From a virus, in IMG/VR virus record IMGVR_UViG_3300037508_001510, positions 1-22,160 of that record: DNA of 22,160 bases; one strand, 5' to 3'. Shown here one piece after another: positions 3,679-22,160 of this stretch; the stretch's first letter is position 1, and each line of letters opens with the position of its first letter. The translations under genes were made by a program, and so were the position numbers. Below the pieces are notes generated by a model, which was not told the DNA's origin, ran no database searches, and worked only from the letters and a program-made list of their open reading frames with translations.

Positions 3679-3777
3679 TGGTACAGTCGGTAGGTTTCGA
3701 ACCTACAAAGGCGATGTCTAGGACGTTGCCCCGTCCTGCCATAAAGGCAGAGGTCTCCCAATTCCACTCACGACTGC
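3679..3777 (-). tRNA. Aberrant class II tRNA, Leu-like body, apparent anticodon UUA (99 nt)
   Basis: The 7-bp acceptor stem (GCAGTCG / CGACTGT), discriminator A, encoded CCA and T-arm (GTAGG TTCGAAA CCTAC) are all intact. The D-region contains GTGGAATTGGGAGAC, very close to that of tRNA-Leu at 11669-11749. The anticodon stem TCTGC/GCAGG holds the 7-base loop CTTTATG, giving anticodon UUA, which would read the stop codon UAA. The alternative stem CTGCC/GGCAG leaves only a 5-base loop. A hairpin GGACG/CGTCC sits in the variable region, and 14 further bases lie before the T-stem, making the gene unusually long. The D-stem is weak and base 37 is a U. It could be a suppressor, a degenerate tRNA-Leu or a tRNA-like RNA. 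Confidence 0.6.
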
Positions 3778-4574: not shown

Positions 4575-5343
4575 TACCGTCTTTGCTATTATACTTTACA
4601 TTAGGATCGTATTTTTCAAACTTTTCGTAATGCGGCTCATTGGGTAGGACTCTTTTACCTACAAAATATTCACCAATATGGTTTATTAAATGTTCTCCCT
4701 GTGCTCCTTTAAGTTTACCTGCAACTAGATTATGACCTTCCCACAGTACTTTGCCGATCATACCTTCATTATAGTTTATCTGCCACCAGTCTCTATCTGG
4801 ATAGGTATCTCTCAGCCATTGGCTGTAGTTGTATCGAACTCTTTCTATACTATATAAACTGGCCATAGGACTGAATATAGCACTGTTCTTTTCATATCTC
4901 CAATGCTTATATGTCCAGTCAGAACCTAATGCTTGACTAGGATGTTCTGTAAAGTACCAGGGTTGCCGTTGTAAAGTTAACTGACTAAGGCTAGTATCTC
5001 CGTTAAGTATCACAAGCATATCTTCTATAGGAATAGGTGTTAATATTTCAACATCATCTTCCTGATGCCAAATATAATCATAATCCCTGTCTTTGATTAA
5101 ATTCCAGCACTCTGACCAAGTAACACTCAATCCTTTATTTTCTTTATGTAGAATAACTTCGTTGTAGCCAAACGCCCTAACCAAAGTATCTAATAGTAAA
5201 TCATTTCTTCCATTAGGGAAATCGTCAAAGAATATACCATGTACCTCATGATTACCAAAGTCTAATAACTTTTGTGATTCTAATGTGCGAGTTAGATATT
5301 CTAGTCTATTTGTAGAAAATATAATCTTACAGATTTTTGCCAT
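4558..5343 (-). CDS. GT-A fold glycosyltransferase-like protein (261 aa)
   Basis: The N-terminus (MAKICKIIFSTNRLEYLTRTLES) has the nucleotide-sugar-binding start of family-2-like glycosyltransferases. YIWHQEDDVEILTPIP near residue 90 supplies the metal-binding acidic motif (EDD, in the place of DxD). The C-terminal part has WWQINYNEGMIGKVLWEGH and a histidine-rich acceptor region. No transmembrane segment is seen, so it is probably a soluble enzyme. Its start overlaps the stop of the DUF6445-like gene by one base, and its stop overlaps the next gene, placing it in the middle of a tightly coupled operon. Sugar donor and acceptor are unknown. Confidence 0.78.
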   Translation of the reverse strand: MAKICKIIFSTNRLEYLTRTLESQKLLDFGNHEVHGIFFDDFPNGRNDLLLDTLVRAFGYNEVILHKENKGLSVTWSECWNLIKDRDYDYIWHQEDDVEILTPIPIEDMLVILNGDTSLSQLTLQRQPWYFTEHPSQALGSDWTYKHWRYEKNSAIFSPMASLYSIERVRYNYSQWLRDTYPDRDWWQINYNEGMIGKVLWEGHNLVAGKLKGAQGEHLINHIGEYFVGKRVLPNEPHYEKFEKYDPNVKYNSKDGSVYVE

Positions 5344-5891
5344 CAGTGTCTTTCTGTATCAAAGAAGAATGTTTGAAAAAGTCTTCCATTGTGTAGATTA
5401 TCTCCAAAATAGTCTAAACTAGCATGGAACAGGTCACCTCTATATAGGATCAGTCTATTATACTTGTTACCTATCCTATCAAACAGTTCCCATTTAGTAT
5501 AATCATACCCCTCCCAATCTTGAGTTATCCTTTTGTGTTCTCCGGTTCTTCTATGACGGAATAATCCAGTACCGCCCGAACCAGGAGCATCTGGAGTAAG
5601 ATAGCACACGCCAGCCCACATATTATGAGGATCACTATGAATCCAAGTTCTATCCTGTGCAGTGGCTAGTTGAAAAGCTCCTGTATATCCACTACCTTCG
5701 TAGGTATTTGTTATTTTGCCGGCAAACTGCATATTATACTCTATAGCTTCTTTGACGTCATTTGTAAAAAATGGTCGAGTACGAGCACCTGGATAGTTTC
5801 CTTTCACAGCGAAATCTTGCGATAGTGCAAAGTTTCTTACTGCATCTGGATTAGTATAAAAGTTGTCAATAATTATTAGGCTTACTTCCAT
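5343..5891 (-). CDS. DUF6445-type 2OG-Fe(II) oxygenase-like protein
   Basis: 182 residues. The sequence matches my recollection of the DUF6445 pattern: a start like DNFYTNPDAVRNFALSQDF, then YPGARTRPF, IHSDPHNMWAGVCYLTPDAP, GGTGLFRHR, NRLILYRGDLFHAS and GRLFQTFFF. The likely iron ligands are H85, D87 and H156, with R170 binding 2-oxoglutarate. This is a jelly-roll oxygenase arrangement that would hydroxylate a protein or small molecule. The start codon directly abuts the TAA of the gene upstream. Its position inside the glycosyltransferase operon suggests action on the same product, but this is inference. The family assignment is strong; the activity is unproven. Confidence 0.82.
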   Translation of the reverse strand: MEVSLIIIDNFYTNPDAVRNFALSQDFAVKGNYPGARTRPFFTNDVKEAIEYNMQFAGKITNTYEGSGYTGAFQLATAQDRTWIHSDPHNMWAGVCYLTPDAPGSGGTGLFRHRRTGEHKRITQDWEGYDYTKWELFDRIGNKYNRLILYRGDLFHASLDYFGDNLHNGRLFQTFFFDTERH

Positions 5892-7869: not shown

Positions 7870-7877
7870 TATTTATA
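7870..7877 (-). promoter_or_regulatory. T4-type late promoter (TATAAATA) for the Y-RNA-like RNA
   Basis: The exact octamer lies on the minus strand and overlaps the TAA stop (7873-7875) of the Ro-like gene. T4 late transcription starts about six bases after the last A, which here gives a start at about 7864, two bases before the closing helix of the RNA. It would let the RNA be made late and independently of the Ro mRNA. Confidence 0.68.
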
Positions 7878-9264
7878 ATACATTATATCTAGGCACATCT
7901 ACAGTGGCCCGCATAATAGCCTCAGGAGTCATTGCGGCACCACTTAGGACACCTTTCATAACACTGGGACTAAAGCCGCTCACTAGAGCTGTACCTCGCT
8001 GGTCAAACTTTACCGGAACATTGTTAGTGGCTCTTAGGTTCCAAAAAACAATGTTAGGCATAGCGTAACCAGCATCTTCATACTTACGCTGAATCATTTG
8101 ATGTGCCGAATCGTCAAACTTAACACATTCATCGAACTGCATGTCACTTAGAATCAACAGAGTCTTTGGCATGTCTGCCTCCGCTACTGATCCTTCTTTA
8201 GCGATACGCAAAATCTCATTAAATGCCTTGTGTAGATTGGTATTCATTCCCCAATCGCTACGCACCATTTGAATAAGTTTTTGACTCAACGAACCTTTTA
8301 AAACTTCTGCTTTGGTACTAGCACTAAAGGTCAAGAATACATCTTTAAAGACACTGCGATTCTTATCCGCACAGTATAATCCTAAACTTACAGCCGCATC
8401 TAAACAGGTTACGTTTTTATTGTTACCTGCTGGCGTATGCATACTTCCACTAACATCTACTAACGGAATAACGCTGTTATCACCGATATAGTCGGGTAAA
8501 GCAGCCCATTGAGCATCCGCTACAACATGATCTCCACCACTATTAATGGTTTTAATTACATCGTAGGGATATACAGCACTGGCATTCACCTTATCCTCAC
8601 CTTTAGTAAGGCGCTCTTTGTAGGCTGCGTATGCTTCTGGAGCACGACGACCAAAGGCCTTGTTGTAGCGAGCCGCTGCTAATGAAGGTAGTTTTCCAAA
8701 CTCTATAGTGTTCCATTCCTGGGCACACATTTTGGTTTCTACTACATTGGTTAGGCCCACTAACAACTTACGGTAGCCTTTAGGAGTCAGCCCCATGAAC
8801 TGACGAAGTTCTACTGCCTGGGCGCCCTTACGAGGCATCCACTTAGCACATAACTTCTGTCCATCACGCAGAGCTTGGTGAATAAAGGTATGAGCTGCAC
8901 CTTTGAAGCGTAAGGTTTGAAAGATTAATAAATCATCCCAACGACCAAACTCTGGCACAAAGGTTAACACACGATCCAACATGTCAGGATGTTGGCTTTC
9001 TAGATGAAGGAGAATATCGCGGAACAACTGACGTTCACCCGCGCCACCACGAACATCACGAGCCCATAATGCAATTTTCATTGCTAGGCCCGAATCTTCT
9101 TGAAAGGCACGTTCAAAATCTCCAACAATGTTTTTACCACGGCTAGCACCGATCTTGAAGAATAGGTCCACAAGGGCATTACCACTGTGAGCCAAAGCCT
9201 TCATGTTATTTTCAGTGCGAGCTTCCGCTGGTTGAGTTTGAACTGCTTCTGCAAAGGTAGTCAT
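7873..9264 (-). CDS. Ro60-like RNA-binding protein (TROVE/DUF2828-type repeats plus vWA domain)
   Basis: 463 residues from ATG 9264, chosen because AAAGGAGAAC lies just upstream; the frame opens earlier at 9303 but without a ribosome-binding site. Residues 30-235 are a helical-repeat region with LWARDVRGGAGERQLFRDIL and VPEFGRWDDLL. Residues 263-460 are a von Willebrand A domain: DVSGSM (D270, S272, S274) forms the MIDAS metal site, with WGMNTN (T342) and ILSDMQFDE (D374). The GMNT, SDMQFDE, PNIVFWNLR and ALVSGFS blocks match the DUF2828 relatives of the TROVE/Ro family. Ro proteins are rings that bind misfolded RNAs and Y RNAs, and orthologues are known in some phages. Structured RNAs flank the gene on both sides. 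Whether it behaves as a true Ro or only shares the fold is uncertain. Confidence 0.88.
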   Translation of the reverse strand: MTTFAEAVQTQPAEARTENNMKALAHSGNALVDLFFKIGASRGKNIVGDFERAFQEDSGLAMKIALWARDVRGGAGERQLFRDILLHLESQHPDMLDRVLTFVPEFGRWDDLLIFQTLRFKGAAHTFIHQALRDGQKLCAKWMPRKGAQAVELRQFMGLTPKGYRKLLVGLTNVVETKMCAQEWNTIEFGKLPSLAAARYNKAFGRRAPEAYAAYKERLTKGEDKVNASAVYPYDVIKTINSGGDHVVADAQWAALPDYIGDNSVIPLVDVSGSMHTPAGNNKNVTCLDAAVSLGLYCADKNRSVFKDVFLTFSASTKAEVLKGSLSQKLIQMVRSDWGMNTNLHKAFNEILRIAKEGSVAEADMPKTLLILSDMQFDECVKFDDSAHQMIQRKYEDAGYAMPNIVFWNLRATNNVPVKFDQRGTALVSGFSPSVMKGVLSGAAMTPEAIMRATVDVPRYNVL

Positions 9265-9294
9265 TTTTGTTCTCCTTTCTGTGTGTAAAATGAC

Positions 9295-9353
9295 AGGATG
9301 CACACTGTAGTTTCAATTACGAGTTGAAGATAAAGTTGCTGTAGGCATCCTAA
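9295..9353 (-). promoter_or_regulatory. Structured 5' leader of the Ro mRNA, related to the downstream Y-like RNA
   Basis: Transcription from the promoter at 9360-9388 should begin near 9353 with UUAGG. A 7-bp helix AGGATGC/GCATCCT (9345-9351 with 9295-9301) is followed by a 1x1 internal loop, a UAC/GUG helix and then AGCAA. A hairpin TTCAA-7-TTGAA lies inside. The first 18 bases agree with those of the RNA at 7731-7864 at 14 positions, and the closing helices differ by two compensated pairs. The ribosome-binding site lies about 20 bases after the element. A role as a Ro-binding leader, allowing autoregulation, is inferred. Confidence 0.6.
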
Positions 9354-10529: not shown

Positions 10530-10606
10530 TGGTCGGTGATGAGAGATTCGAACTCCCGACCCTCTGCTCCCAAAGCAGATGCGCTACCAGCCTGCGCTAA
10601 TCACCG
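10530..10606 (-). tRNA. tRNA-Pro(UGG)
   Basis: Cloverleaf with acceptor CGGTGAT/ATCACCG, anticodon loop TTTGGGA (anticodon UGG), T-arm GGGAG TTCGAAT CTCTC and encoded CCA. It decodes CCA, a fitting codon for an AT-rich phage. The TAA of the 64-residue gene ends one base before its 5' end. Confidence 0.95.
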
Positions 10607-10801
10607 TTATATTGCAATTCGTAGTTTATTTAATTCTTCGTTGGTTAGAAACATTTGAAACTTTTTATGATATTCATTTGGATTTTTAGCATCTTTCCAT
10701 TTGGTATAAAAAGTTACAGATAGCTTTCCCACATCATATGATGGAATTGATGTTTCTATAAAAGTCTGATATCCATCGGTGTCGCTGATTAAGATTTTCA
10801 T
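10607..10801 (-). CDS. Hypothetical protein (64 aa)
   Basis: Not recognised. It begins MKILISDTDGYQTFIETSIPSY and ends NEELNKLRIAI, a mixed strand-helix composition without a signal peptide or cysteines. It fills the space between tRNA-Val and tRNA-Pro exactly: it starts nine bases after the tRNA-Val CCA and its stop abuts the tRNA-Pro 5' nucleotide. Excision of the tRNAs would release it as a separate mRNA piece. No clear ribosome-binding site is seen. Confidence 0.65.
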   Translation of the reverse strand: MKILISDTDGYQTFIETSIPSYDVGKLSVTFYTKWKDAKNPNEYHKKFQMFLTNEELNKLRIAI

Positions 10802-10809
10802 ATTATGTT

Positions 10810-10886
10810 TGGTGGACGGTAGAGGGTTCGAACCTCTGACCTACGCCTTGTAAGGGCGCCGCGCTACCAGCTGTGCCAACCGTCCT
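10810..10886 (-). tRNA. tRNA-Val(UAC)
   Basis: Acceptor AGGACGG/CCGTCCA-type pairing, anticodon loop CTTACAA (UAC), T-arm AGAGG TTCGAAC CCTCT, encoded CCA. It reads GUA. Its first two bases are also the last two of the TAG stop of the omega-like gene. Confidence 0.95.
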
Positions 10887-11115
10887 ATCTAACCTTTCTC
10901 AAATAATCTGTTTTAACAAGTCCTACCTGAATATCTAACAGAGCACTAACTGGCGTGCATTCATGTTCAATCTTACCATTTGCTCTGTTACGCTTTACAA
11001 TCTCTCTAGCTCTAGCGGCACCTATAAGCACCATGTTAAACTTATTGCCATCAAGATTTTTCAAGCAGGTATCATAATCAATACCTGGACCACGACTGAG
11101 AATTAACTTTTTCAT
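10885..11115 (-). CDS. rpoZ-like: RNA polymerase omega subunit-like protein (76 aa)
   Basis: From ATG 11115 the product is MKKLILSRGPG...; AGGA lies upstream. An open extension to 11181 is rejected because it runs through tRNA-Gly. NKFNMVLIGAARAREIV (residues 24-40) matches the omega signature (N-R-F-x-L-V-x-x-A-x-x-R-A-R), and CTPVSALLDIQVGLV fits its second helix. Cellular omega is about 90 residues and assists assembly of RNA polymerase by clamping beta'. A phage copy could modify host polymerase specificity or assembly, which suits a genome with two promoter classes (inference). The TAG stop overlaps the 5' end of tRNA-Val by two bases. It lies between tRNAs, downstream of the promoter at 11298-11327. 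Confidence 0.78.
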   Translation of the reverse strand: MKKLILSRGPGIDYDTCLKNLDGNKFNMVLIGAARAREIVKRNRANGKIEHECTPVSALLDIQVGLVKTDYLRKVR

Positions 11116-11128
11116 TACTATCCTAAAA

Positions 11129-11203
11129 TGGAGCGGGTAGCGAGAATCGAACTCGCGACGAACAGCTTGGAAGGCTGACACTCTACCACTGAGTTACACC
11201 CGC
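11129..11203 (-). tRNA. tRNA-Gly(UCC)
   Basis: Acceptor GCGGGTG/TACCCGC, anticodon loop CTTCCAA (UCC), T-arm GCGAG TTCGATT CTCGC, discriminator U, encoded CCA. It reads GGA. Confidence 0.95.
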
Positions 11204-11212
11204 ATGTTAAAA

Positions 11213-11288
11213 TGGTGCTGCTTGTCGGATTCGAACTGACCACCTACTGATTACAAATCAGTCGCTCTGCCAACTGAGCTAAAGCAGC
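11213..11288 (-). tRNA. tRNA-Thr(UGU)
   Basis: Acceptor GCTGCTT/AAGCAGC, anticodon loop TTTGTAA (UGU), canonical D-arm TAGCTCAGTTGGCAGAGC, T-loop TTCGAAT, encoded CCA. It reads ACA. A strong sigma70-type promoter ends three bases upstream. Confidence 0.95.
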
Positions 11289-11297
11289 ATAAAAACT

Positions 11298-11327
11298 ATT
11301 ATATACTATTCCATTGTATTGTGTCAA
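11298..11327 (-). promoter_or_regulatory. Sigma70-type promoter for the tRNA-Thr/tRNA-Gly/omega group
   Basis: Perfect TTGACA (11322-11327) and perfect TATAAT (11298-11303), 18 bases apart on the minus strand. It lies in the last codons of the 78-residue gene. The predicted start is two or three bases before tRNA-Thr. Confidence 0.82.
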
Positions 11328-11535
11328 GAACATCTTCGAATGATTCAACCACTTCCCAGGTTCCGTGTGGCGGACAAAACACATATGTTACTTCATCACT
11401 TGAACCATCTTCTCTCAATACTGTTCCTGGGTATACAGTAACAATAAGGTCTCGCCTAATAGCTATAGGCTTACCTTTATGTCCAGGACTGGCATTAGTA
11501 AGTGTTACAAACACGTCTCTATTTACCTTGACCAC
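11299..11535 (-). CDS. Hypothetical small beta protein, FlbD-like pattern (78 aa)
   Basis: Begins with GTG at 11535 inside the end of the 44-residue gene; a second GTG seven codons later, better spaced from AAGG, is possible. The pattern VTLTNASPGHKGKPIAIRRDLIVTVYPGT, then a strand and ESFEDVLDTIQ resembles the small FlbD-like fold (x-L-T-x-x-N-G-x-x, I-x-x-x-x-I-x-x-V, V-x-E-S-x-E-x-V). This is a pattern impression, not a firm family call. Its 3' end contains the promoter for the next tRNA group. The stop is TAG. Confidence 0.65.
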   Translation of the reverse strand: MVKVNRDVFVTLTNASPGHKGKPIAIRRDLIVTVYPGTVLREDGSSDEVTYVFCPPHGTWEVVESFEDVLDTIQWNSI

Positions 11536-11653
11536 GATAGGCCTTATAGGCTCTACGTTTATGTTTATTCATTGCGCTAGTTTTTGGTGTAGAGCCACCT
11601 TGACTAGTTCTTTTTACAACGACCTTACGATTTTGATTTACTGTCTTTGCCAT
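11519..11653 (-). CDS. Very basic small protein (44 aa)
   Basis: Starts MAKTVNQNRKVVVKRTSQGG and ends HKRRAYKAYRGQGK, with many Lys and Arg and almost no acidic residues, so a nucleic-acid-binding role is plausible. AGGAT lies six bases before the ATG. It starts 15 bases after tRNA-Leu and overlaps the 78-residue gene by 17 bases. The composition resembles ribosomal-protein-like or DNA-binding phage peptides, but I do not recognise a family. Confidence 0.72.
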   Translation of the reverse strand: MAKTVNQNRKVVVKRTSQGGSTPKTSAMNKHKRRAYKAYRGQGK

Positions 11654-11668
11654 GATTATCCTTTATTG

Positions 11669-11749
11669 TGGTGCCCCAGGCGAGACTCGAACTCGCACCC
11701 GAAGACTGGCTTCTAAGACCAGCGTGTCTACCAATTCCACCACCGGGGC
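11669..11749 (-). tRNA. tRNA-Leu(UAG)
   Basis: Class II tRNA with acceptor GCCCCGG/CTGGGGC (one wobble), D-arm TGGTGGAATTGGTAGACAC, anticodon loop CTTAGAA (UAG), short variable arm TCTTCGGG, T-arm GCGAG TTCGAGT CTCGC and encoded CCA. It reads CUA. The HNH gene ends one base before it. Confidence 0.94.
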
Positions 11750-12091: not shown

Positions 12092-12186
12092 TGGTAGTAG
12101 GTTAAGGAATCGAACCTTACCGTTCCAGCCCATCTGACCAGTCTCCCGGGTTTATAAGTCCCAGCCGCACACCAGTGCTACCTACC
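12092..12186 (-). tRNA. Aberrant class II tRNA, apparent anticodon UAU (95 nt)
   Basis: Acceptor GGTAGGT/ACCTACT, T-arm TAAGG TTCGATT CCTTA and encoded ACCA are sound. The D-arm is a hairpin GCAC-TGGT-GTGC with only four loop bases. The anticodon stem is CTGGG/CCCGG around ACTTATAAA: a 9-base loop, or 7 bases closed by an A-A mismatch, centred on anticodon UAU, which reads the Ile codon AUA. A long variable arm (CTGGTC/GGCTGG, with wobbles) follows. Ile tRNAs are normally class I, so the combination is odd. Ile(UAU) would suit an AUA-rich genome. Alternatives are a Tyr- or Leu-derived tRNA, or a tRNA mimic. Confidence 0.6.
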
Positions 12187-12190
12187 ATAC

Positions 12191-12198
12191 TATAAATA
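12191..12198 (+). promoter_or_regulatory. T4-type late promoter (TATAAATA) for the GNAT-SGNH-ACP operon
   Basis: The exact octamer lies 28 bases before the GNAT start codon, giving a leader of about 23 bases. It overlaps the -10 box of the opposing sigma70-type promoter. Confidence 0.68.
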
Positions 12199-12226: not shown

Positions 12227-12670
12227 ATGATTCGCCCAATAACATGGAGTCAAATACGAAAAATCTGGCATACTAGATTATGGCCTGATAGAACCAATGC
12301 CATTGAACCAGCTAGTGCTATGGTATACATAGAAGGACATAACATACATAACATGAATTTTTCACCTAGCTTTTTTGGATATTTCGTAGATAACGACCTT
12401 GTGGGTGTTAACAGTGGACATCTATGCGACGATAATTCTTTTAGATCCAGGGGGCTTTGGGTTGATGAAAATCATAGAGGTTATGGATACGGAAAAGAAT
12501 TATTAAAGGCTGTTATTAACCAAGCCAAACTAGAGTCAGCCGACTTCATATGGAGTTTTCCAAGAAAGACTAGTTGGCCTACATATAAGTCAGTTGGTTT
12601 TAAAAAAACCAGCGATTGGGTTAAAAGCGACACAAGTGAAGCTAATGTTTTTTGCAAGTTAGAATTTTAA
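12227..12670 (+). CDS. GNAT-family N-acetyltransferase
   Basis: 147 residues. The acetyl-CoA-binding motif A is seen as LWVDENHRGYGYGKELLKAVINQA (R/Q-x-x-G-x-G/A form, residues about 84-107). WSFPRKTSWPTYKSVGFKKT follows, the usual motif-B end with Y-x-x-x-G-F. It transfers an acetyl or acyl group to an amine of unknown identity. It is the first gene of a plus-strand group behind the late promoter at 12191. Its TAA overlaps the next ATG (TAATG), indicating coupling with the SGNH protein. No strong Shine-Dalgarno sequence is seen before ATG 12227. Confidence 0.88.
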   Translation: MIRPITWSQIRKIWHTRLWPDRTNAIEPASAMVYIEGHNIHNMNFSPSFFGYFVDNDLVGVNSGHLCDDNSFRSRGLWVDENHRGYGYGKELLKAVINQAKLESADFIWSFPRKTSWPTYKSVGFKKTSDWVKSDTSEANVFCKLEF

Positions 12671-13425
12671 TGGGCCAATTAATTGTATGTGGAGACAGCT
12701 TTATGAGCCCAGTCCAAGGAAAATTTGCTGGTACACACTTTAGTGAGTTAATAGCAAAAGAATTAAAATATGAATTAATCGCCTATAGTAGAGGAGGTAT
12801 GAGCAATGGCGGAATATGTTTACAAATTCAGGCAGCTATAGATTTACAACCTAAACCTAGTTTAATATTACTTGGAACTACAAGTCCGGATAGAATGGAA
12901 TGGCCCATTAATGAAATAAATGAAGTTGAAAAATTTAATTTGAATGATGTACTGTATGATGACGATAGATTTACAAGTTTTAACAATTTTGGATCAAACG
13001 AAAATGCACAACTAGTTTCAACACCAATTAGTGACATTTTTGGCCATTACAAAACTAAAGCCTATTACAAATTAGACAACCAAATAGGTAATAGAATCAG
13101 TGCGTTACAAAATTACTTTGAATTTTTATATCATCCTGACTGGAAACGTGAGCAAGACAAACTAATGTTATATGCTATGTTTCATAAACTTCATAAATCA
13201 GGAATACCTTACATAATTTGTTATGAAGGAGTGAAAGGTATAGTGGACCAATGCGAATGGTTAAATTATGGTGGAATAAGCAAAAACTACGCTGCCAGTG
13301 AAATAACGACATTAATTTCTAAATTTTATGACAATAGATATAACGACAGTGAAATCGCAGAATACCATACATCTGTTCATACACAGATAACCATAGCAAA
13401 TATATTATTAGAGAAATATATATGA
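12670..13425 (+). CDS. SGNH-hydrolase-like protein, copy 1 (251 aa)
   Basis: The start at 12670 is chosen by alignment with its paralogue (MGQLIVCGDS against MKKIIVCGDS) and by the TAATG overlap. The block I serine motif GDSFMSP is followed by GTHFSELIAKEL, AYSRGGMSNGG (block II glycine region) and LILLGTTSPDRMEW. The C-terminal EYHTSVH supplies a histidine where the SGNH family has D-x-x-H, but the aspartate is not evident. The family contains esterases and O-acyl hydrolases acting on sugars or lipids. Together with GNAT and an ACP-like protein it suggests acyl-group chemistry. No signal peptide is present, so it is probably cytoplasmic. Confidence 0.75.
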   Translation: MGQLIVCGDSFMSPVQGKFAGTHFSELIAKELKYELIAYSRGGMSNGGICLQIQAAIDLQPKPSLILLGTTSPDRMEWPINEINEVEKFNLNDVLYDDDRFTSFNNFGSNENAQLVSTPISDIFGHYKTKAYYKLDNQIGNRISALQNYFEFLYHPDWKREQDKLMLYAMFHKLHKSGIPYIICYEGVKGIVDQCEWLNYGGISKNYAASEITTLISKFYDNRYNDSEIAEYHTSVHTQITIANILLEKYI

Positions 13426-14177
13426 AAAAAATTATAGTTTGTGGTGATAGTTATATGAGTCCAGTTATTGGAAAACATGCTGGTACTCATTTCAGTGAAT
13501 TAATAGCTAAACATTTAGGATGTGAGTTAATAGCCTATAGTAGGGGTGGGATGAGCAATGGCGGAATATGTATTCAGATTGATACTGCTATCAACTTAAA
13601 TCCAAAACCAGATCTTATCCTAGTAGGAACTACGTCTTTTAATAGAATAGAATGGCCTATAACACTTGATCCTGTAGAAAAATTTACTGTGCATGATTTA
13701 GTATATGCGGATCATAAAACTTTTTTAAGTAGTTCATATGATTGGTTAGATAAATCTCCCAAAATGATTAGTACAGTTATGCGTGATATTTGGGGAAACT
13801 ATAAGAATTGTGCTTATTATAAATTTGATCCATTAATAGAACATAGAGTTAGAGCATTATATAGGTATTTTGAACTACTTCATTATCCAGATTGGAAGAG
13901 AGAGCAAGATAAGTTAATGCTATATGCAATTTTACATAAACTCCATCTATCAAACATTCCATACATAATTTGCTATGAAGGTATTAGGTATTTTGCAAAG
14001 GAATTTCCTTGGTTAACCGAGACAAATTGTTATAACTATGCTTTTCCTAAGTTTGCCGAAGTATTAGACAACACACCGGCGACACATGAAACAGATCCTG
14101 GTTACCATAGCTTACCAGCCTGTCAGCAAACATTAGCAGAATACCTTATTGAAAATCACACTTCAAAAATGTTATAA
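13422..14177 (+). CDS. SGNH-hydrolase-like protein, copy 2 (251 aa)
   Basis: Tandem paralogue of the preceding gene, colinear throughout: CGDSYMSPVIGKHAGTHFSE, AYSRGGMSNGGICIQI, LILVGTTSFNRIEWPI, YPDWKREQDKLMLYA and PYIICYEG all match. The C-terminal catalytic region reads DPGYHS, nearer to the family's D-x-x-H than copy 1, so this copy may be the active one. The gene overlaps copy 1 by four bases (ATGA), and its TAA shares one base with the ATG at 14177. The middle parts (residues about 85-125) differ most, which may set substrate specificity. Confidence 0.75.
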   Translation: MKKIIVCGDSYMSPVIGKHAGTHFSELIAKHLGCELIAYSRGGMSNGGICIQIDTAINLNPKPDLILVGTTSFNRIEWPITLDPVEKFTVHDLVYADHKTFLSSSYDWLDKSPKMISTVMRDIWGNYKNCAYYKFDPLIEHRVRALYRYFELLHYPDWKREQDKLMLYAILHKLHLSNIPYIICYEGIRYFAKEFPWLTETNCYNYAFPKFAEVLDNTPATHETDPGYHSLPACQQTLAEYLIENHTSKML

Positions 14178-14401
14178 TGATGACTAGGTTAGAAATTAAA
14201 CAAGTAATAGCAGATTTTTTTAATATCCCATTTGAAAGAATAAATGATAACAGTACATTTAGTGACTTAGGATTAGATTATATTGACTGTTTTGAACTAA
14301 TCTGTGAACTAGAAATAATTTACAAAATAGATATTCCTTACAAAAGTGAACATTTAAATGTTTCGGTGGGAAAATTAATTGATAGCCTGGTCCCACTTTA
14401 A
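14177..14401 (+). CDS. Acyl carrier protein-like protein lacking the carrier serine
   Basis: 74 residues with the full helical ACP pattern: IKQVIADFFNI, NSTFSDLGLDYIDCFELICELE, then IDIPYKSE. In true ACPs the centre reads D-S-L, with serine carrying 4'-phosphopantetheine. Here it is D34-Y35-I36, so the attachment residue is tyrosine. It therefore cannot be charged in the usual way and may act as a docking or regulatory protein, or be decaying. It is the last gene of the GNAT/SGNH operon and starts at the stop of SGNH copy 2. Its last 27 bases overlap the convergent gene at 14375-15262. An alternative start is the second ATG three bases on. Confidence 0.82.
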   Translation: MMTRLEIKQVIADFFNIPFERINDNSTFSDLGLDYIDCFELICELEIIYKIDIPYKSEHLNVSVGKLIDSLVPL

Positions 14402-15262
14402 TGGTTTTAACTTTGTCATTAATCCTTGATCATTTAACCATGTATTAACAATCTCCAGTTGTTTCTTAGTACATCCTTTAATAAAGTTCCTATGAAGGGT
14501 AAGTACAGTAATTTTATCTTTACGGTTGATATTTTCTAAAAACCTTATAGGATCTTTAGTAAATTTTTTAAGTTGATTAGTCGATAACCATTCATGGAAT
14601 AAGTCCTCTGTGATTTTCCAATGAAACTTATCATTCATTATAAATGAATAAAAGTGCCAATCTAATATACCTTTTACTTCGTCTTTGTATATTTTAACGC
14701 AAATATTATCCCAAAACCTGTCAAATGCTGTCATATCACCTAACCTATCTTTAAGCCTTTGATAGTTTATTACAAAAGGTGGATTGGATATAAAAACAAA
14801 CTGTGGTATCTCTTGTTGTAAAAATTCTGATATTTCTTTTTGACCATACACAGTTCGTCCTATGTTATCTATAACAGTTGCATTTCCTATAACCTTTCTA
14901 TATTTTTCAAGTTCTACCGGTTTAATGAAGAAGTTTTTAGGAGTAAGACACATATAATCGTCTTGTATAGTATTGGCGATTGTAAATTGATATTTCCAAC
15001 CATTGAAATATGTAGTGCCGTTTCGACTTGCTTCATATGGTAACTTATAAAAGTTTAGGTCATCTGGAAATATCAGTGCCAATTTATGATTAGTATAGTA
15101 TGGCCGTAGATACTCGCGCCACCTCTGTTTATTACCTTCTGTGATTTTGTATTGATTTACAATGACCCAATGTGTACAAGGTGATACAAATTTTTGAATA
15201 CTTTCTGCCTGTAGAATAGTCTGCCTCATATCCCTATTACAGGTTAGCGTTGCTAGGTGCAT
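14375..15262 (-). CDS. DUF6492-like / GT-A-like protein (295 aa)
   Basis: Begins MHLATLTCNRDMRQTILQAESI and continues CTHWVIVNQYKI, a start like that of DUF6492 proteins and other GT-A-like folds where the first strand binds a nucleotide sugar. YMCLTPKNFFIKPVELEKY stands where a D-x-D-like element would be, but the acidic pair (QDD) precedes it. The C-terminal 100 residues are rich in Trp, Lys and Phe. It lies 11 bases after the 2OG oxygenase gene at 15274-15924, and the two probably share the late-type transcript. It converges on the ACP-like gene with a 27-base overlap. Family confidence is moderate and the activity unknown. Confidence 0.6.
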   Translation of the reverse strand: MHLATLTCNRDMRQTILQAESIQKFVSPCTHWVIVNQYKITEGNKQRWREYLRPYYTNHKLALIFPDDLNFYKLPYEASRNGTTYFNGWKYQFTIANTIQDDYMCLTPKNFFIKPVELEKYRKVIGNATVIDNIGRTVYGQKEISEFLQQEIPQFVFISNPPFVINYQRLKDRLGDMTAFDRFWDNICVKIYKDEVKGILDWHFYSFIMNDKFHWKITEDLFHEWLSTNQLKKFTKDPIRFLENINRKDKITVLTLHRNFIKGCTKKQLEIVNTWLNDQGLMTKLKPLKWDQAIN

Positions 15263-15273
15263 TATAATATTTT

Positions 15274-15924
15274 TTATTTGTACATTTGTAAAAAATGTAG
15301 TATTCTTTCGTCTTCTATTACTTCTTCATCGTATAAAAAAGGATCTGATTCAAACCACATCACTACAGAATATCTCTCGCCTTTAACAGGATGAACTCCA
15401 TGTAAAAATTCCCATGATCCAGGAAAAGTTATAATTTCACCTGCGGATGGTTTAAAAGTTTTATTCAGCATCTTAAAGTATATTTCCCCGTTCTCGTAAT
15501 CGTCATTGAGATACAGTATACAAGATATATCGATTTTTTTCCTTCTTTTCATAGTATTGTTATCGAGAAACTGCCCATCTATATGAGGCCAATAGTAGGC
15601 ATTGTTATTGTAATATAAAAATTCGATTGAACTAACTTTACATTTTACCCTATATGATTCCTCACATAACAGCCTACATTGCTCTACTATTTCATTTAAA
15701 AAAGGCTCAAACCCACTAAAATCTATTCTCTTAGTGCTGCATAAATTTTTAATAATAACAGGCACATAAGTTTTATTCTCGATTGAACCTACACTGCCCC
15801 ACGCTGTTTTTTTAGACTCTTGAGCTAGCTCAAGCAGTTTTTCTATTTTTTCTTTTTGAATTATTGAATGGAAGTTTTTTATTTCTGCTTTTTTAAGTTC
15901 AAGGCGATCTGAAATTTTTGTCAT
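15274..15924 (-). CDS. 2OG-Fe(II) oxygenase, prolyl-4-hydroxylase-like
   Basis: 216 residues. The C-terminal double-stranded beta-helix has YYWPHIDGQF (H114, D116), then CILYLNDDYENGEIYF, FPGSWEFLHGV (H175) and GERYSVVMWFES (R184), the complete H-x-D...H...R iron and 2-oxoglutarate set of the P4H class. Residues 1-45 are a charged helical leader. Enzymes of this type hydroxylate proline or other residues in proteins. The ATG is one end of the 18-bp palindrome at 15922-15939, so its mRNA may have no leader. The divergent neighbour is the YkgJ-like Cys-cluster protein, which might handle iron. Confidence 0.88.
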   Translation of the reverse strand: MTKISDRLELKKAEIKNFHSIIQKEKIEKLLELAQESKKTAWGSVGSIENKTYVPVIIKNLCSTKRIDFSGFEPFLNEIVEQCRLLCEESYRVKCKVSSIEFLYYNNNAYYWPHIDGQFLDNNTMKRRKKIDISCILYLNDDYENGEIYFKMLNKTFKPSAGEIITFPGSWEFLHGVHPVKGERYSVVMWFESDPFLYDEEVIEDERILHFLQMYK

Positions 15925-15939
15925 ATAAATATTTATATG
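15922..15939. promoter_or_regulatory. Palindromic divergent late promoter containing both start codons
   Basis: CATATAAATATTTATATG is a perfect 18-bp palindrome. It holds TATAAATA on the plus strand (15924-15931) and on the minus strand (15930-15937). Its outer triplets are the ATG of the gene at 15937 and of the gene ending at 15924. With T4-type spacing both transcripts would start at or next to the A of their ATG, so both mRNAs would be leaderless. Confidence 0.72.
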
Positions 15940-16422
15940 GTGGCAAATAGAAACTGTACAGATTGTACAATGTGTTGTGAAGGATGGCTATCTGGAGATG
16001 CATATGGACATAAATTTTATCCTGGAAAACATTGTATCTTTTTGCAGTCAAAGACATGTGCTATCTATGAATCAAGACCCGCTATGTGTAAAGATTTTTT
16101 TTGCCAATGGAAAGTAGATCCTAATATTCCAACAGACTTTAAACCTAACGTAGTTAACTACATGATAATTAAAGGTCAGGTTAATGATATAGAATACCTT
16201 GCATTAATAGGCAATGATAAGGTTCCAGATTATACTGTTATAAATTATTTTATTAAAAAACAGCTAAATGGTGAAATAGAAAATCTAGTATATACCATAG
16301 ACGGTAATCCTTGTATAAAAGGAACCAGTGAATTTGAAAAGCTGTTTTCGAGAATTAATTTTTCAATAACTGCACCAACTTGTAAGCAGAATCGTTCTAT
16401 GGTCAGGCCATGTAGTAAGTGA
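15937..16422 (+). CDS. YkgJ-like Cys-cluster (Fe-S or zinc binding) protein
   Basis: 161 residues. NCTDCTMCCEGW (C7, C10, C13, C14), then GKHCIFL (C33), KTCAIYESRPAMCKDFFCQW (C41, C51, C56) reproduce the YkgJ/UPF0153 cysteine pattern, including Y-x-x-R-P-x-x-C-x-x-F. The family is thought to bind zinc or an iron-sulfur cluster. The last 100 residues are not recognised. The ATG is the right end of the divergent palindromic promoter, and no ribosome-binding site can exist there. The 3' end overlaps the convergent oxygenase gene at 16363-16887 by 60 bases. It is surrounded by iron enzymes, so a role in their metallation is a possible link (inference). Confidence 0.85.
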   Translation: MVANRNCTDCTMCCEGWLSGDAYGHKFYPGKHCIFLQSKTCAIYESRPAMCKDFFCQWKVDPNIPTDFKPNVVNYMIIKGQVNDIEYLALIGNDKVPDYTVINYFIKKQLNGEIENLVYTIDGNPCIKGTSEFEKLFSRINFSITAPTCKQNRSMVRPCSK

Positions 16423-16887
16423 AGGTGTTACTGAATGAGCTATATCTCTTGAATAAACCAGCAACTTATTGTAATGTGGAACAATAAGTTCATTTGCTCC
16501 ATTCCATAATCCTCCCATAGATTCTACCCAGTTATCTGTAAGGTATATTATACATGTATAAGATTTATCTAAAGACCTGCCATGGACGTAGTCATCTAAA
16601 TGTTTATGCATGTCATAGCTATCTGTAGTAACACTGATTTTGATGGAATATAACAGTAAATCTGAATTTATTATATTTCTTAAACTTGTTTTAATTTTAC
16701 TTAATATCGAAACCCATATTACCCCGAGAACACTTTTCATGTCATTCTCATTACCACTTTGACAGTTAAAGTTAATAAAAGTATTACCTAGTTTTTTAAG
16801 AGTATGAAAATCTATATTATCATTAGCATAACTTTTTAAAAACCGTAAATCTGAATCATTAAGAAAGCTATCAATAGTTTTTATCAT
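16363..16887 (-). CDS. 2OG-Fe(II) oxygenase-like protein (174 aa)
   Basis: The metal motif MHKHLDDY (H96, D98), distal RDIAHSVTP (H151) and DHRTILLTSW (R164) give the H-x-D...H...R set. YTCIIYLTDNWVESMGGLW lies between them, as in prolyl-hydroxylase-like folds. The N-terminus (MIKTIDSFLNDSDLRFL) matches the usual 'flexible start, D-x-F-L' of this group. It overlaps the upstream oxygenase gene by four bases, so the two are translationally coupled and follow the subtilase. The 3' end overlaps the YkgJ-like gene on the other strand by 60 bases. The substrate is unknown; hydroxylation of a phage or host protein is the family-based guess. Confidence 0.83.
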   Translation of the reverse strand: MIKTIDSFLNDSDLRFLKSYANDNIDFHTLKKLGNTFINFNCQSGNENDMKSVLGVIWVSILSKIKTSLRNIINSDLLLYSIKISVTTDSYDMHKHLDDYVHGRSLDKSYTCIIYLTDNWVESMGGLWNGANELIVPHYNKLLVYSRDIAHSVTPSLTTWPDHRTILLTSWCSY

Positions 16888-17573
16888 TGGGGTTTATATA
16901 ATAGTTTATCGATACTTCCGGGTAGAATTAGATCTTCCGGTAGAACGAACCTAAAAGTTATTCCAAGACGCTTTTCTGTGCAAGGAGCAACTCCGTGCAG
17001 CCATTTACTGCCTATATTAATTAAAACGCTATTTTCTGGTGGCTTGAAGAATAAGCCGCGCTCATCCCAAAATTCTCCACCACCTCCATCATTCTTAATA
17101 TAGTAAGTAGCACTCATTGTAGTTCCCTTTGTACAATAAGCATCTCCATCTGCATGTTTATCTAATGCCTGTCCGGGAGGCAGTAAGTTATATATTCCCC
17201 TTGTTATGATGTATGGTTTTTCTGAAAGAGGAAATAGTGTTAGTATTTTTTTAGCAAGTGTGAGAAATACTATAGGAATTAGTTTTTTATAGTTAGATTC
17301 TGCCCAGTCAAATATAGTTTCGGGTGTTTGATTCCAATATCCGTCTAGATCTCTAAGCTGCCATAGTTTATAATAAGGTCTATAAGACTTTACACCCATT
17401 AAGGTATAATCCTTATTATCAAAATTAATTTTTCTACCTTCAAAGTTGAAGGCCAAGTTTCCTTCTAAGCCTTCTAAGTAAGCACCTATATGTTGCTGTT
17501 GTTGAATAGTTAGGAATTTTTCGTAAACCCATACGTCATCGAAATCAGATATGGGCCGAGGCTCTATCCTCAT
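16884..17573 (-). CDS. 2OG-Fe(II) oxygenase-like protein (229 aa)
   Basis: ALDKHADGDAY supplies H140 and D142; WLHGVAP supplies H193; KRLGITFRF supplies the 2-oxoglutarate arginine (R202 or R208). GGGGEFWDERGLFFKPPENSVLI is the typical strand run between them. The front 120 residues include a YRPYYKLWQLRDLDGYW segment that I do not recognise. It starts inside the subtilase stop (ATGA overlap) and itself overlaps the next oxygenase gene, so subtilase and two oxygenases form one translational unit. It could hydroxylate a residue in the protease, a tail protein or a host target; sequence alone cannot choose. Confidence 0.85.
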   Translation of the reverse strand: MRIEPRPISDFDDVWVYEKFLTIQQQQHIGAYLEGLEGNLAFNFEGRKINFDNKDYTLMGVKSYRPYYKLWQLRDLDGYWNQTPETIFDWAESNYKKLIPIVFLTLAKKILTLFPLSEKPYIITRGIYNLLPPGQALDKHADGDAYCTKGTTMSATYYIKNDGGGGEFWDERGLFFKPPENSVLINIGSKWLHGVAPCTEKRLGITFRFVLPEDLILPGSIDKLLYKPQ

Positions 17574-19288
17574 TTAATAAGGAAAGGAATAGCAGGTTTA
17601 ACCCAAGCAGCGAAGAAGCTCTGGCTATCGATATTTTCAAGTGCTGTTGCTACTTCGCCGTCTAAACTAGTCTGTACATCTGGGTTAGCAGCGAAAAATA
17701 TTAGGTTAGGAGACCTATATGTGATTGAGCCGCTTAGTGTTCTTGCTTTGACAACAAAAGAAACTAATCTTATCTTTTCATCTGGTTGCCAATCTAATAC
17801 AGGAGGATTAACATTTAAAGTTCCTGATTGATCTACTGTAATATATTGTCCTATATCGCTAGGAACACATTCTATAATATATTCAAAACTTTCCCCTGTG
17901 TCTTGTGCGTATTTGTCGTAGGGTAAAACTGTTTGAATATTAGCTGTTATTGGTTCGGATGCCACACCTAAGTAAAAAGAATGTTCAACGAATGCTTTGT
18001 TGTTGTCAGCACTAATTAAAAATGCTACTCTATTTTGATGGTAAGTAAATTTTTCGCTGTCTAAAAGTAAAACACCCTTAGTTGAAAAATCTATAAGAAT
18101 CTGTTGAGCTGTTGCCCTATATGTATCTGGAACTTGTGCAAGAATTGCAGCCATACATCCTGCCACGAAACCTGCTGAAATAGATGTTCCACTATAGGTA
18201 GCATATATATTATCGCCTGTATGGTTCGCTCCAGGCACATCTACTCCTGGAGCAAAAATATCAATTTGTGTTCCATAGTTAGTAGTAATGTTCATGTCAA
18301 ACGTACTAAAGTTATTAAAACCTGCACCTACATCGTCTATATCACAGGCAGCAGCAGTAATAACGTCTACCATGCCAGCCGGAGTTAAGTTGCTAACATC
18401 CATCCCAACATTGCCCGATGCTGCCACCACAACTATGCCTGCTGATATTAAATCTTGGAACTTACCTTCTAGGTATGTATTTTTAGCTACGGTCCAACTA
18501 CAGTTAACTACCATTGGAATGGACGGGTCTGCTACGAATCTATTTAGACATGCATCTAGTGCATAACCTAGTTCAATAGCATTTGGTTTAAAGTTAGAAT
18601 TGAATACTTTACAGTTAAGGAGACGTAAATGTCTATGAACACCTATATTAGTACCGCAGGCAAAACTAGCCACTCCAGTCCCGTGGCCTGCTTGGTCTCT
18701 AAAATCGTTATCAAATACAGGAAGGGCATAAAAGTCTTCACATTCTAAACCTTGAAATTCGTCGTGAGTGAAATTAATACCGCTATCTATAATAACTAGA
18801 TTAGGTTTACGTGTAAAGTTTGTATCTGCTAACTGAAAGCTAGAAACAAAGGGTCTGTATCTTGATATAAGTCTTAGTCTTGCCCATTCATAATTAGTAG
18901 GTAAGCCTGTACTTAGGCCTGTGTTAATTTCGCTTAATAACTTAATAGGCGTATCTACCTGTTCAACTTCTCCGTTCAGTTCTCTATAAAGGTCTAAACC
19001 TTGAGTAGTTTCTACTAACCAATAGTCTTTATTATTTGCAACGAATTTTCCATTGTTGCCTTCGGATGTCACGACAGTAACAGGAGTTTGAATTTGCTCT
19101 GTGTTATCTATTCGCACTAAATACCTCGACATCACCGACGATGTTTGAGTAACAGAACCATTTAACTTTTCTGCTATCTTAATTAAGCTCATAGGTATAG
19201 TAAACACATTATTAGCATCAGGTGTAAGTCCGCTAAATGACTTAAACTGATCTGCATCGATATTAGATGGAAAAACACAATTAAGCAT
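17570..19288 (-). CDS. Subtilisin-like serine protease (572 aa)
   Basis: The catalytic triad is complete: D168 in VIIDSGIN, H202 in AGHGTGVAS and S369 in YSGTSISAGF, with N293 of ASGN as the oxyanion residue. This is an S8 peptidase. Residues 1-150 form a long N-terminal domain without a signal peptide, perhaps a pro-domain or particle anchor. Residues 430-572 form a C-terminal part with strand-rich, Ig/cadherin-like repeats (YDKYAQDTGESFEYIIE, IRLVSFVVKARTLSGS). A late-type promoter lies 22 bases upstream and AGGA precedes the ATG, so it is likely a late, possibly virion-associated or maturation protease (inference). Two 2OG oxygenase genes follow in coupled frames. Confidence 0.93.
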   Translation of the reverse strand: MLNCVFPSNIDADQFKSFSGLTPDANNVFTIPMSLIKIAEKLNGSVTQTSSVMSRYLVRIDNTEQIQTPVTVVTSEGNNGKFVANNKDYWLVETTQGLDLYRELNGEVEQVDTPIKLLSEINTGLSTGLPTNYEWARLRLISRYRPFVSSFQLADTNFTRKPNLVIIDSGINFTHDEFQGLECEDFYALPVFDNDFRDQAGHGTGVASFACGTNIGVHRHLRLLNCKVFNSNFKPNAIELGYALDACLNRFVADPSIPMVVNCSWTVAKNTYLEGKFQDLISAGIVVVAASGNVGMDVSNLTPAGMVDVITAAACDIDDVGAGFNNFSTFDMNITTNYGTQIDIFAPGVDVPGANHTGDNIYATYSGTSISAGFVAGCMAAILAQVPDTYRATAQQILIDFSTKGVLLLDSEKFTYHQNRVAFLISADNNKAFVEHSFYLGVASEPITANIQTVLPYDKYAQDTGESFEYIIECVPSDIGQYITVDQSGTLNVNPPVLDWQPDEKIRLVSFVVKARTLSGSITYRSPNLIFFAANPDVQTSLDGEVATALENIDSQSFFAAWVKPAIPFLIK

Positions 19289-19309: not shown

Positions 19310-19317
19310 TATTTATA
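19310..19317 (-). promoter_or_regulatory. T4-type late promoter (TATAAATA) for the subtilase operon
   Basis: The exact octamer on the minus strand would start RNA near 19304, leaving a 15-base leader with AGGA before the subtilase ATG at 19288. It sits in the 35-base gap between the divergent subtilase and 19324 genes. Confidence 0.68.
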
Positions 19318-20025: not shown

Positions 20026-20919
20026 CTTTTTTGAATTTTCTATAATAAATTCTTGGACAGTATGATTCATGAATGTTAGACTTTGGAAATTTCTATTATA
20101 ATAATATAACGGTGCTCGAAAATCTATTTCAAATGCTCCTTCGTACTTGTCATTATTATAATATTTTTTAAGTTGTTCAAACCCTGTACGCTTGGTCAGC
20201 TGGGGAACTATGTCTAAACCTAATCTTAGATAGTTATCTATTTTATTTACATACCTATCGTCAGATGTATTTTCTCTAATGGTACCACAACTTAGAGCTA
20301 CTTTGATACAAAGTTCTTTGTAAAACCCTAGAAAACTTTGTATACAGGGTATTTTTGATTTTAGGCTAAAGTTTTCGATATCAGTTAGCTGTGCTTTAGA
20401 TGATGCAAATAGTACCCAATTATTATATATAACAAAACTATTTCCACCCAAGGCGGCACCTGTGTATCCGAGGTCCTTTAGTTTGCAAATGTAATGTGCA
20501 TAAGTAGCGAACTGTGGACTACTCATATTATGAGTCTTACCAAAGTCTATTAAATCATGAGTTAAAAATCGTAACACATTTGACTTTATTACCTTAAATG
20601 GAATATCACGACTTTGTGCAAAGTTAACTGCATCTTCCACTTCTTCTTCATTTAAGTTATTTTCAAATTGAAATATTACTGCTGTGTATTGTACATCTTT
20701 ATCCCATAAACCTATCATAGCCTGACTATCTATGCCGCCAGATAGACAAAGAGCAGGATTATTACCTAAATATTTTGAAGCTATTTTAGTTGCATTTTTA
20801 CTGATTAAATCTAAACTAGTAGATTGTATACGATCTATATCATCCATGGTAATGAATGCATGTACATGTAGACCATCTTCAAATAATTCAGATCTACACC
20901 AGTTATCATAAAATAGCAT
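19972..20919 (-). CDS. PP-loop ATP pyrophosphatase, asparagine-synthase-like (315 aa)
   Basis: ALCLSGGIDSQAMIG (residues 57-70) is the PP-loop that binds ATP and adenylates a carboxyl or carbonyl group. It is followed by YTAVIFQFEN and NFAQSRDIPFKVIKS, typical of asparagine-synthase and tRNA-modifying PP-loop enzymes. There is no N-terminal glutaminase domain and no zinc cysteine set as in QueC. The first 35 residues are a short unique leader. It follows the beta-hydroxylase-like gene with one shared base, so the two are probably co-expressed. Amidation or nucleotide modification is possible; the substrate is not deducible. Confidence 0.82.
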   Translation of the reverse strand: MLFYDNWCRSELFEDGLHVHAFITMDDIDRIQSTSLDLISKNATKIASKYLGNNPALCLSGGIDSQAMIGLWDKDVQYTAVIFQFENNLNEEEVEDAVNFAQSRDIPFKVIKSNVLRFLTHDLIDFGKTHNMSSPQFATYAHYICKLKDLGYTGAALGGNSFVIYNNWVLFASSKAQLTDIENFSLKSKIPCIQSFLGFYKELCIKVALSCGTIRENTSDDRYVNKIDNYLRLGLDIVPQLTKRTGFEQLKKYYNNDKYEGAFEIDFRAPLYYYNRNFQSLTFMNHTVQEFIIENSKKLNFEKYGSAQTWYNYAP

Positions 20920-21551
20920 TAGTTTACTTTTAAGTTATTTAAGATTGTGGTAATGCTTCTATCTGTGCCAAATACATTCATTACAAAACAAATAGACATA
21001 TCCGTCATGCTAAAAAGATAATGTACTTTGGTTGTATTAATAAAATATACCTGTCCATGAACTAAGGATAGTATATTATTTTCTTGCACCCAAGTTAAGT
21101 TAGGTTGTTGAAAGTTATATACAGGAACTATTATTCTAAAAGTAAATGGCAAACTACTGCTAGTACCATTGTCTCTATGAGGCGGAAAAAATCCACCTTG
21201 ATCTAATTTTAAGAAATGACAACGACCATGATCCGGAAATGCGTCTAACAACTGATTAAGTTCTGAGATATGATTTGTTATACTTGTTCTATTTTTAAAA
21301 TCTAACTCAGTGTATTTTGTATTGTTGAGAATATTATATTCTCTTAAACTATCTAGATCAGGAATGCCGCTGAATCCGCCGTCTAAACTAGTAACTGATA
21401 GTCCTTTTCTGTTAATAGATTTTCTAGGGTTATATTGCACCCATCCGGGGTGTTTTTCTAACACAGTCTTTGCTTTGTCGCAATTCCATGCAGGAAAGTT
21501 TAATTCAATAACATCACCGTAATGGGTAATAAGATCAGTTAAGTTATTCAT
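20919..21551 (-). CDS. Aspartyl/asparaginyl beta-hydroxylase-like 2OG oxygenase (210 aa)
   Basis: HFLKLDQGGFFPPHRDNG gives H125 and D127. FRIIVPVYNF supplies R139, at the position typical of the aspartyl/asparaginyl beta-hydroxylase and cupin-like oxygenases. GQVYFINTTKVHYLFSM supplies the distal H177. This order (R between the two iron motifs) differs from the other oxygenases in the window. The front 100 residues are unrecognised. The gene lies directly after the GC-rich structured RNA, which forms its leader if co-transcribed. Hydroxylation of a protein side chain or amino acid is the family-based guess. It shares one base with the PP-loop gene downstream. Confidence 0.8.
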   Translation of the reverse strand: MNNLTDLITHYGDVIELNFPAWNCDKAKTVLEKHPGWVQYNPRKSINRKGLSVTSLDGGFSGIPDLDSLREYNILNNTKYTELDFKNRTSITNHISELNQLLDAFPDHGRCHFLKLDQGGFFPPHRDNGTSSSLPFTFRIIVPVYNFQQPNLTWVQENNILSLVHGQVYFINTTKVHYLFSMTDMSICFVMNVFGTDRSITTILNNLKVN

Positions 21552-21844: not shown

Positions 21845-21921
21845 TGGCACCACCTGAGAGATTCAAACTCCCGACCCCCAAGTTCGTAGCCTGGTGCTCT
21901 ATTCAGCTGAGCTAAGGTGGT
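21845..21921 (-). tRNA. tRNA-Arg(ACG)
   Basis: Acceptor ACCACCT/AGGTGGT, discriminator G, encoded CCA, D-arm TAGCTCAGCTGAATAGAGC, anticodon loop CTACGAA (ACG, expected to be modified to ICG), T-arm GGGAG TTTGAAT CTCTC. Confidence 0.94.
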
Positions 21922-21926
21922 ATTGT

Positions 21927-22000
21927 TGGTAGCCCCGACTGGAATTGAACCAGTAATAGCCGATTATCAGTCGACCGTTATACCATTTAACTACAGGGCT
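21927..22000 (-). tRNA. tRNA-Ile(GAU)
   Basis: Acceptor AGCCCTG/CGGGGCT, anticodon loop CTGATAA (GAU), T-arm ACTGG TTCAATT CCAGT, encoded CCA. Five bases separate it from tRNA-Arg. Confidence 0.94.
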
Positions 22001-22004
22001 GTTA

Positions 22005-22082
22005 TGGAGTGAGGGATCGGATTCGAACCGATGGCTTTACAGTTTTGCAGACTGTTCCTTTGGGCCTCTCAGGCACCCTCAC
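22005..22082 (-). tRNA. tRNA-Cys(GCA)
   Basis: Acceptor GTGAGGG/CCCTCAC, discriminator U (the Cys identity base), anticodon stem-loop ACAGT CTGCAAA ACTGT (GCA), T-arm ATCGG TTCGAAT CCGAT, encoded CCA. Confidence 0.94.
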
Positions 22083-22087
22083 ACAGT

Positions 22088-22160
22088 TGGTGGACCGGCG
22101 GAGGATCGAACTCCGACTAAAGGCTTGCAAAGCCCCTGTGCTACCATTATCACTACCAGC
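22088..22160 (-). tRNA. tRNA-Ala(UGC), first two bases outside the window
   Basis: Anticodon loop TTTGCAA (UGC), T-arm CGGAG TTCGATC CTCCG, 3' acceptor strand CCGGTCC with A and CCA. The visible 5' strand GCTGG pairs with it and includes G3-U70, the Ala identity pair. The window ends at tRNA position 3. Confidence 0.92.

Follow-up and report, generated by a model that had tools for sequence, protein, structure and literature searches.

The stretch of DNA analysed here, referred to as the window, comprises 22,160 nucleotides of a marine T4-like virus (IMG/VR record IMGVR_UViG_3300037508_001510). Two divergent genes meet in it with only 12 bases between their ATG codons, an ORF of 161 aa on the plus strand and an ORF of 216 aa on the minus strand. 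The 12 bases and the two start codons together form the perfect 18-bp palindrome CATATAAATATTTATATG, in which the late promoter octamer TATAAATA is present once on each strand (Table 1). The palindrome and both octamers were located exactly as originally predicted. A profile match confirmed the 2OG oxygenase, and the Cys-rich product belongs to phrog_9155. The two octamers have 2 bp (TA) in common, and the last base of each octamer is at the same time part of the ATG served by the opposite one. On both strands the octamer is separated from its ATG by the same AT-rich spacer of 5 nt, TTTAT. Even with up to three mismatches allowed, the palindrome was the single match to its own sequence in the window (0.10 expected). 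A role as a terminator or hairpin was set aside by reasoning, because the arms are nearly AT-only and there is no U-tract.

Table 1. Features of the palindrome locus and of two further late octamers in the window (start sites according to T4 numbering).
Feature	Position	Strand	Basis or remark
18-bp perfect palindrome CATATAAATATTTATATG	15922..15939	.	overlapping late octamers and both start codons
Late octamer TATAAATA, rightward gene	15924..15931	+	predicted +1 at 15937 (PMC2988020)
Late octamer TATAAATA, leftward gene	15930..15937	-	predicted +1 at 15924 (PMC2988020)
Rightward start codon and predicted mRNA 5' end	15937..15939	+	start site inferred
Leftward start codon and predicted mRNA 5' end	15922..15924	-	start site inferred
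161-aa Cys-rich protein, phrog_9155, function unknown	15937..16422	+	ORF list, phrog match
216-aa 2OG-Fe(II) oxygenase	15274..15924	-	PF13640, 7.8e-13
295-aa ORF following the oxygenase gene after 11 bases	14375..15262	-	ORF list
Separate late octamer, leadered, 28 nt before the ATG of run 12227-14401	12191..12198	+	octamer scan
Separate late octamer, leadered, 21 nt before the ATG of run 19288-16363, CAGGAAC between	19310..19317	-	octamer scan

In T4 late promoters the first base of the octamer lies at -13, with an AT-rich segment just downstream (PMC2988020). Counted in this way, the octamer ends at -6, and with a spacer of 5 nt the predicted +1 coincides, on both strands, with the first base (A) of the start codon. 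The T4-type spacing on which the original prediction relied is thus present in both directions. The predicted start sites are 13 bp apart, and the first transcribed bases would differ between the two directions (AUGGUGGC versus AUGACAAA). Conserved alternative starts upstream and in frame had been named as evidence against the prediction. No in-frame ATG, GTG or TTG was found before the nearest stop upstream of either ORF (8 open codons on the plus strand, 21 on the minus strand).

Homologues of the 161-aa protein were found in cyanophages. A search of IMG/VR for close relatives of the 216-aa oxygenase yielded none, and no nucleotide relatives of the palindrome locus were found in phage records. 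The 295-aa ORF is probably co-transcribed with the oxygenase gene. The bare octamer TATAAATA was seen five times in the window compared with 4.5 expected, and its over-representation was therefore rejected. Gene runs are headed by the octamers at 12191 (+), in the palindrome, at 19310 (-) and at 7870 (-), the last of which lies about 200 bases upstream of its gene. In the minus-strand segment 7704-7877, this octamer (7877-7870) precedes some 160 nt for which a stable fold was predicted (z -3.65), with an intrinsic terminator that has a UUCG loop (7731-7708) at the end. The segment is situated directly downstream of a DUF2828/DUF7788 gene (7873-9303). No Rfam match was obtained for it, and it is a possible late-transcribed noncoding RNA.

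Several other features of the window were recorded. A tandem pair of similar ORFs at 12652-14401 (+) has a GDS motif, looks SGNH-like and precedes an acyl-carrier-type protein (PF00550); the one ORF of the pair that was scanned (13422-14177) had no Pfam match. Oxygenase-like genes were located at five positions in the 22 kb (5343-5891, 15274-15924, 16363-16887, 16884-17573 and 20919-21551). Two of them gave clear 2OG-Fe(II) matches, one matched DUF6445, one is a weak match and one is a relative of the palindrome-linked gene of record G030. The window also contains two tRNA clusters (10530-11749 and 21845-22160 on the minus strand), with nine tRNAs called by both tools. A weak tRNA-Sec-like match (12095-12187) and a tRNA-His called by ARAGORN alone (3679-3777) are doubtful.

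The palindrome had originally been described as a one-off, but it proved to be one instance of a recurrent design. The exact 18-mer was present in 52 other IMG/VR contigs, compared with 4 for the control palindrome CATAATAATATTATTATG, which has the same composition and the same CAT/ATG ends. For TATAAATATTTATA scanned alone, the number of matches is a lower bound. With the window included, ORFs of at least 80 aa were found on both sides at 31 of the 53 viral sites, on one side at 14 and on neither side at 8. The latter two groups indicate that some copies of the palindrome are not two-gene promoters. The 53 sites fall into 29 clusters, and the 13 clusters with two long ORFs represent mutually unrelated gene pairs (no protein match between clusters at E < 1e-3). 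Six related contigs (L003, L007, L008, L017, L035 and L036) have a 205-aa-type ORF next to the palindrome, whose other side has an ORF of only 13 aa. Relatives of the window proteins occur in the palindrome-bearing records (58% to G013, 55% to G001, 46% to G004 and 42% to G030). A search for gp23 in 32 palindrome-bearing records, most of which are fragments, gave 4 clear matches. The palindrome core was absent from T4, KVP40, Syn9, S-PM2, P-SSM2, HTVC008M, Melnitz and AG-345-L05.

The same spacing was found at single genes. In 20 palindrome-bearing records together with HTVC008M and Melnitz, with the palindromes masked, ATAAATA was located exactly 5 nt before the ATG of 48 non-redundant ORFs; the remaining spacings from 0 to 14 nt averaged 3.6. 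Whatever the spacing, no 7-mer permutation of ATAAATA exceeded 15, a value reached by two permutations that are register shifts at the same sites; the Poisson and permutation counts for this class treat sites as independent. A second, broad class of ATAAATA genes has the motif about 15 nt and further before the ATG. Shine-Dalgarno-like 4-mers were present in 81% of genes with an octamer at 12-38 nt, in 38% of genes without an octamer and in 4% of the spacing-5 genes, the last value being partly forced because there the octamer occupies the usual Shine-Dalgarno position. Since T4 numbering places +1 on the A of the ATG, the genes with ATAAATA-5-ATG look like leaderless late genes. The octamer-5-ATG unit could also aid annotation as a marker of likely true starts in viral metagenomes.

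Relatives of palindrome-linked genes were compared at their start codons. Relatives of the HNH family with 59-67% identity are without the palindrome. In L357/L358 and L361, TATAAATA-5-ATG is kept on the partner strand, with the HNH gene 35-44 bases away. Among the P-loop-family relatives without the full palindrome, L369 keeps the octamer-5-ATG unit with TATAAATA, and L374, L375-L377, L382 and L384 carry GATAAATA-5-ATG next to other neighbours; the remaining relatives of this family have lost the unit. These cases argue that the one-sided unit is retained and that a head-to-head encounter of two such units gives rise to the palindrome. A second geometry of this kind is CAT-N5-TATTTATAAATA-N5-ATG, in which the octamers share TATA and the predicted start sites are 23 bp apart. 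It was found in 113 contigs (L386 onward, e.g. L398:6476-6503), with divergent ORFs of at least 60 aa on both sides in 101 of them. They form 23 clusters, and in 14 of these each of the two ORFs reaches at least 80 aa. In HTVC008M (KC465899, record positions 18914-18945; L265, L496) the divergent genes for the DNA end protector and head completion have abutting octamers, each 5 nt from its ATG and one of them with one mismatch, so that the arrangement could be tested in a phage that is in culture. At G029:C1:27873 (in L230) and G031:C1:1451 (in L197), longer inverted repeats containing octamers flank the divergent starts, with gaps of 29 and 54 and one mismatch per side.

The spacing-5 class was absent from T4, Syn9, S-PM2, P-SSM2 and AG-345-L05, each of which had at most one ATAAATA site at this spacing. 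It was present in the cultured SAR11 phage HTVC008M (9 of 45 ATAAATA sites) and weakly in the cultured phage Melnitz (3 sites). At all six spacing-5 sites in the annotated stretch of HTVC008M that was read, the predicted ATG is the deposited start codon. The products are a phytanoyl-CoA dioxygenase-domain protein, CsgF, a tail-tube-associated baseplate protein, a baseplate wedge protein, a putative tape measure protein and the DNA end protector. A scan of 17 phage records for TATAAATA-5-ATG gave 5 matches in HTVC008M, 3 in Melnitz and 1 each in T4 and Campylobacter phage NCTC12673, the T4 match having no ORF of at least 40 aa at that spacing. None was found in the remaining 13 records, which include KVP40, Aeh1, phiM12, S-CRM01, CP220, PhiW-14 and P10VF. 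Iterated profile searches with T4 gp55 detected gp55 in the palindrome-bearing records G009, G011, G013, G017 and G030 as well as in HTVC008M, Melnitz and cyanophages. In the gp55 tree the four cyanophage-type sequences, from phages without the spacing-5 class, form one supported group, and many other forks are unresolved. The window, a 22-kb fragment, did not contain gp55, gp33 or gp45. It is likely that in one part of the T4-like phages (the pelagiphage HTVC008M, Melnitz and relatives known only from uncultivated viruses) the octamer became fused to the start codon of some late genes, which thereby went over to leaderless mRNAs. By the same reading, overlapping versions that work in both directions, with two genes per polymerase site, evolved more than once in these phages and took at least two geometries. 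If true, such a lineage-specific class, resolved to the single base and found in a cultured SAR11 phage, would mean that some of the genes of one temporal class can go over to another way of initiating translation.

The octamers might be late promoters whose mRNAs are not functionally leaderless, either because the starts scatter by a few bases or because the genes are translated for the most part from longer transcripts with starts elsewhere. Sigma-70-like matches are indeed found near the palindrome, for example at 15990-15962 (-), at about chance level. However, the spacing peak is only one nucleotide wide, falling from 48 ORFs at 5 nt to 9 at 4 nt and 6 at 6 nt. This suggests that the position of the start site matters for translation, since it would otherwise not be held so exactly. 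The lack of upstream in-frame starts likewise speaks for the ATGs of the palindrome, and we regard non-leaderless mRNAs as unlikely.

A perfect palindrome that recurs between unrelated genes, and whose single-gene relatives have other neighbours, could also be the operator of a dimeric regulator or a seam of gene-cassette exchange, its promoter content being secondary. Yet the one-sided octamer-5-ATG unit is common without the palindrome. The second geometry reverses the order of the octamers and keeps both 5-nt spacers, which an operator would not require, and no partner swapping was seen within clusters that have the palindrome in common, as opposed to what a seam would predict. Both roles are thus very improbable. 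Chance formation in AT-rich DNA would agree with the chance frequency of TATAAATA in the window and with the bacterial and archaeal collection, where the exact 18-mer occurs 42 times without the gene arrangement. This same collection contrasts with the viral sites: none of the 42 cellular sites has two divergent ORFs of at least 80 aa, or even of at least 60 aa, compared with the 31 viral sites given above. Moreover, CAT-N12-ATG occurs 472 times in the 20 palindrome-bearing records, and of the 17 occurrences flanked on both sides by ORFs of at least 80 aa, 16 are CATATAAATATTTATATG. A chance origin is hardly credible against these counts.

We conclude with good confidence that the palindrome is a bidirectional T4-type late promoter, with a complete late promoter on each strand and two divergent leaderless mRNAs as its predicted products. 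In the proposed mechanism, TATAAATA would occupy -13 to -6 on each strand, and +1 would coincide with the A of the start codon that the promoter serves. A gp55-type sigma factor and the sliding clamp would load the host RNA polymerase in either orientation, presumably also in the window virus. Each mRNA would begin with 5'-AUG, and translation would be initiated by recognition of this 5'-AUG without a Shine-Dalgarno site. The unit of the system would be ATAAATA-5-ATG, used one-sidedly at other genes of the virus group, and the palindrome of the window is best read as the tightest head-to-head nesting of two leaderless late promoters. Leaderless mRNAs, as originally proposed, remain the best reading of the sequence data in view of the genome-wide, single-nucleotide-precise class in the related viruses and HTVC008M. 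Since the design recurs at many gene pairs that are unrelated to one another, some of the late mRNA of these phages probably begins exactly at the start codon.

The original prediction further held that two polymerases compete for the site and that the two genes are locked in equal initiation. Two polymerases should not fit the site at once, and mutually exclusive occupancy is plausible from the geometry. The outputs would not thereby be equal or locked, and this part of the claim is not supported: the predicted first transcribed bases differ, and at bidirectional promoters of E. coli competition is confined to high activity (PMC12825309). Both predicted start sites of the palindrome double as start codons, so that polymerase competition and leaderless translation could be tested cleanly on it. 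In size it comes near the minimum for a divergent promoter under the late-octamer consensus.

In the textbook picture of late expression in T4-like phages, late genes have leaders, which in T4 mostly contain a Shine-Dalgarno site. The palindrome has the octamer TATAAATA and the AT-rich spacer in common with the late promoters of T4, which are served by gp55, gp33 and gp45, and gp55 is present in palindrome-bearing relatives. In T4, however, about 13-34 nt separate the octamer from the ATG of a leadered gene, and 91% of T4 octamer genes with the start 12-38 nt away have a Shine-Dalgarno-like 4-mer; in the palindrome the distance is exactly 5 nt and the site is common to two genes. The NATAAATA late promoters of marine cyanomyoviruses (S-PM2, Syn9; PMC2984593, PMC3037559) have the same motif in related marine T4-like viruses. 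Unlike the group of the window, the cyanophage-type S-PM2, Syn9, P-SSM2 and AG-345-L05 have neither the spacing-5 class nor the palindrome core. The literature searched, with most subscription journals outside its scope, contained no account of T4-type late promoters that are leaderless or work in two directions. Bidirectional promoters of E. coli with a symmetric -10 element are similar in that overlapping symmetric elements fire divergently and binding events are mutually exclusive; their commonest start-site distances are 18, 10 and 23 bp, with variation allowed (PMC12825309). The palindrome differs from them in its predicted distance of 13 bp, its late-octamer consensus and the placement of both predicted starts on start codons. 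Judged by these elements, it would work like a bidirectional promoter, but outside the sigma-70 class. With the leaderless mRNAs of bacteria and phages, the palindrome genes share a predicted 5'-terminal AUG and the lack of a Shine-Dalgarno site. They are distinguished from other leaderless mRNAs by the tie to a T4-type late promoter, by membership in a lineage-specific class and by their head-to-head pairing. The palindrome is thus a combination of known kinds: the T4 late promoter, the bidirectional promoter and the leaderless mRNA.
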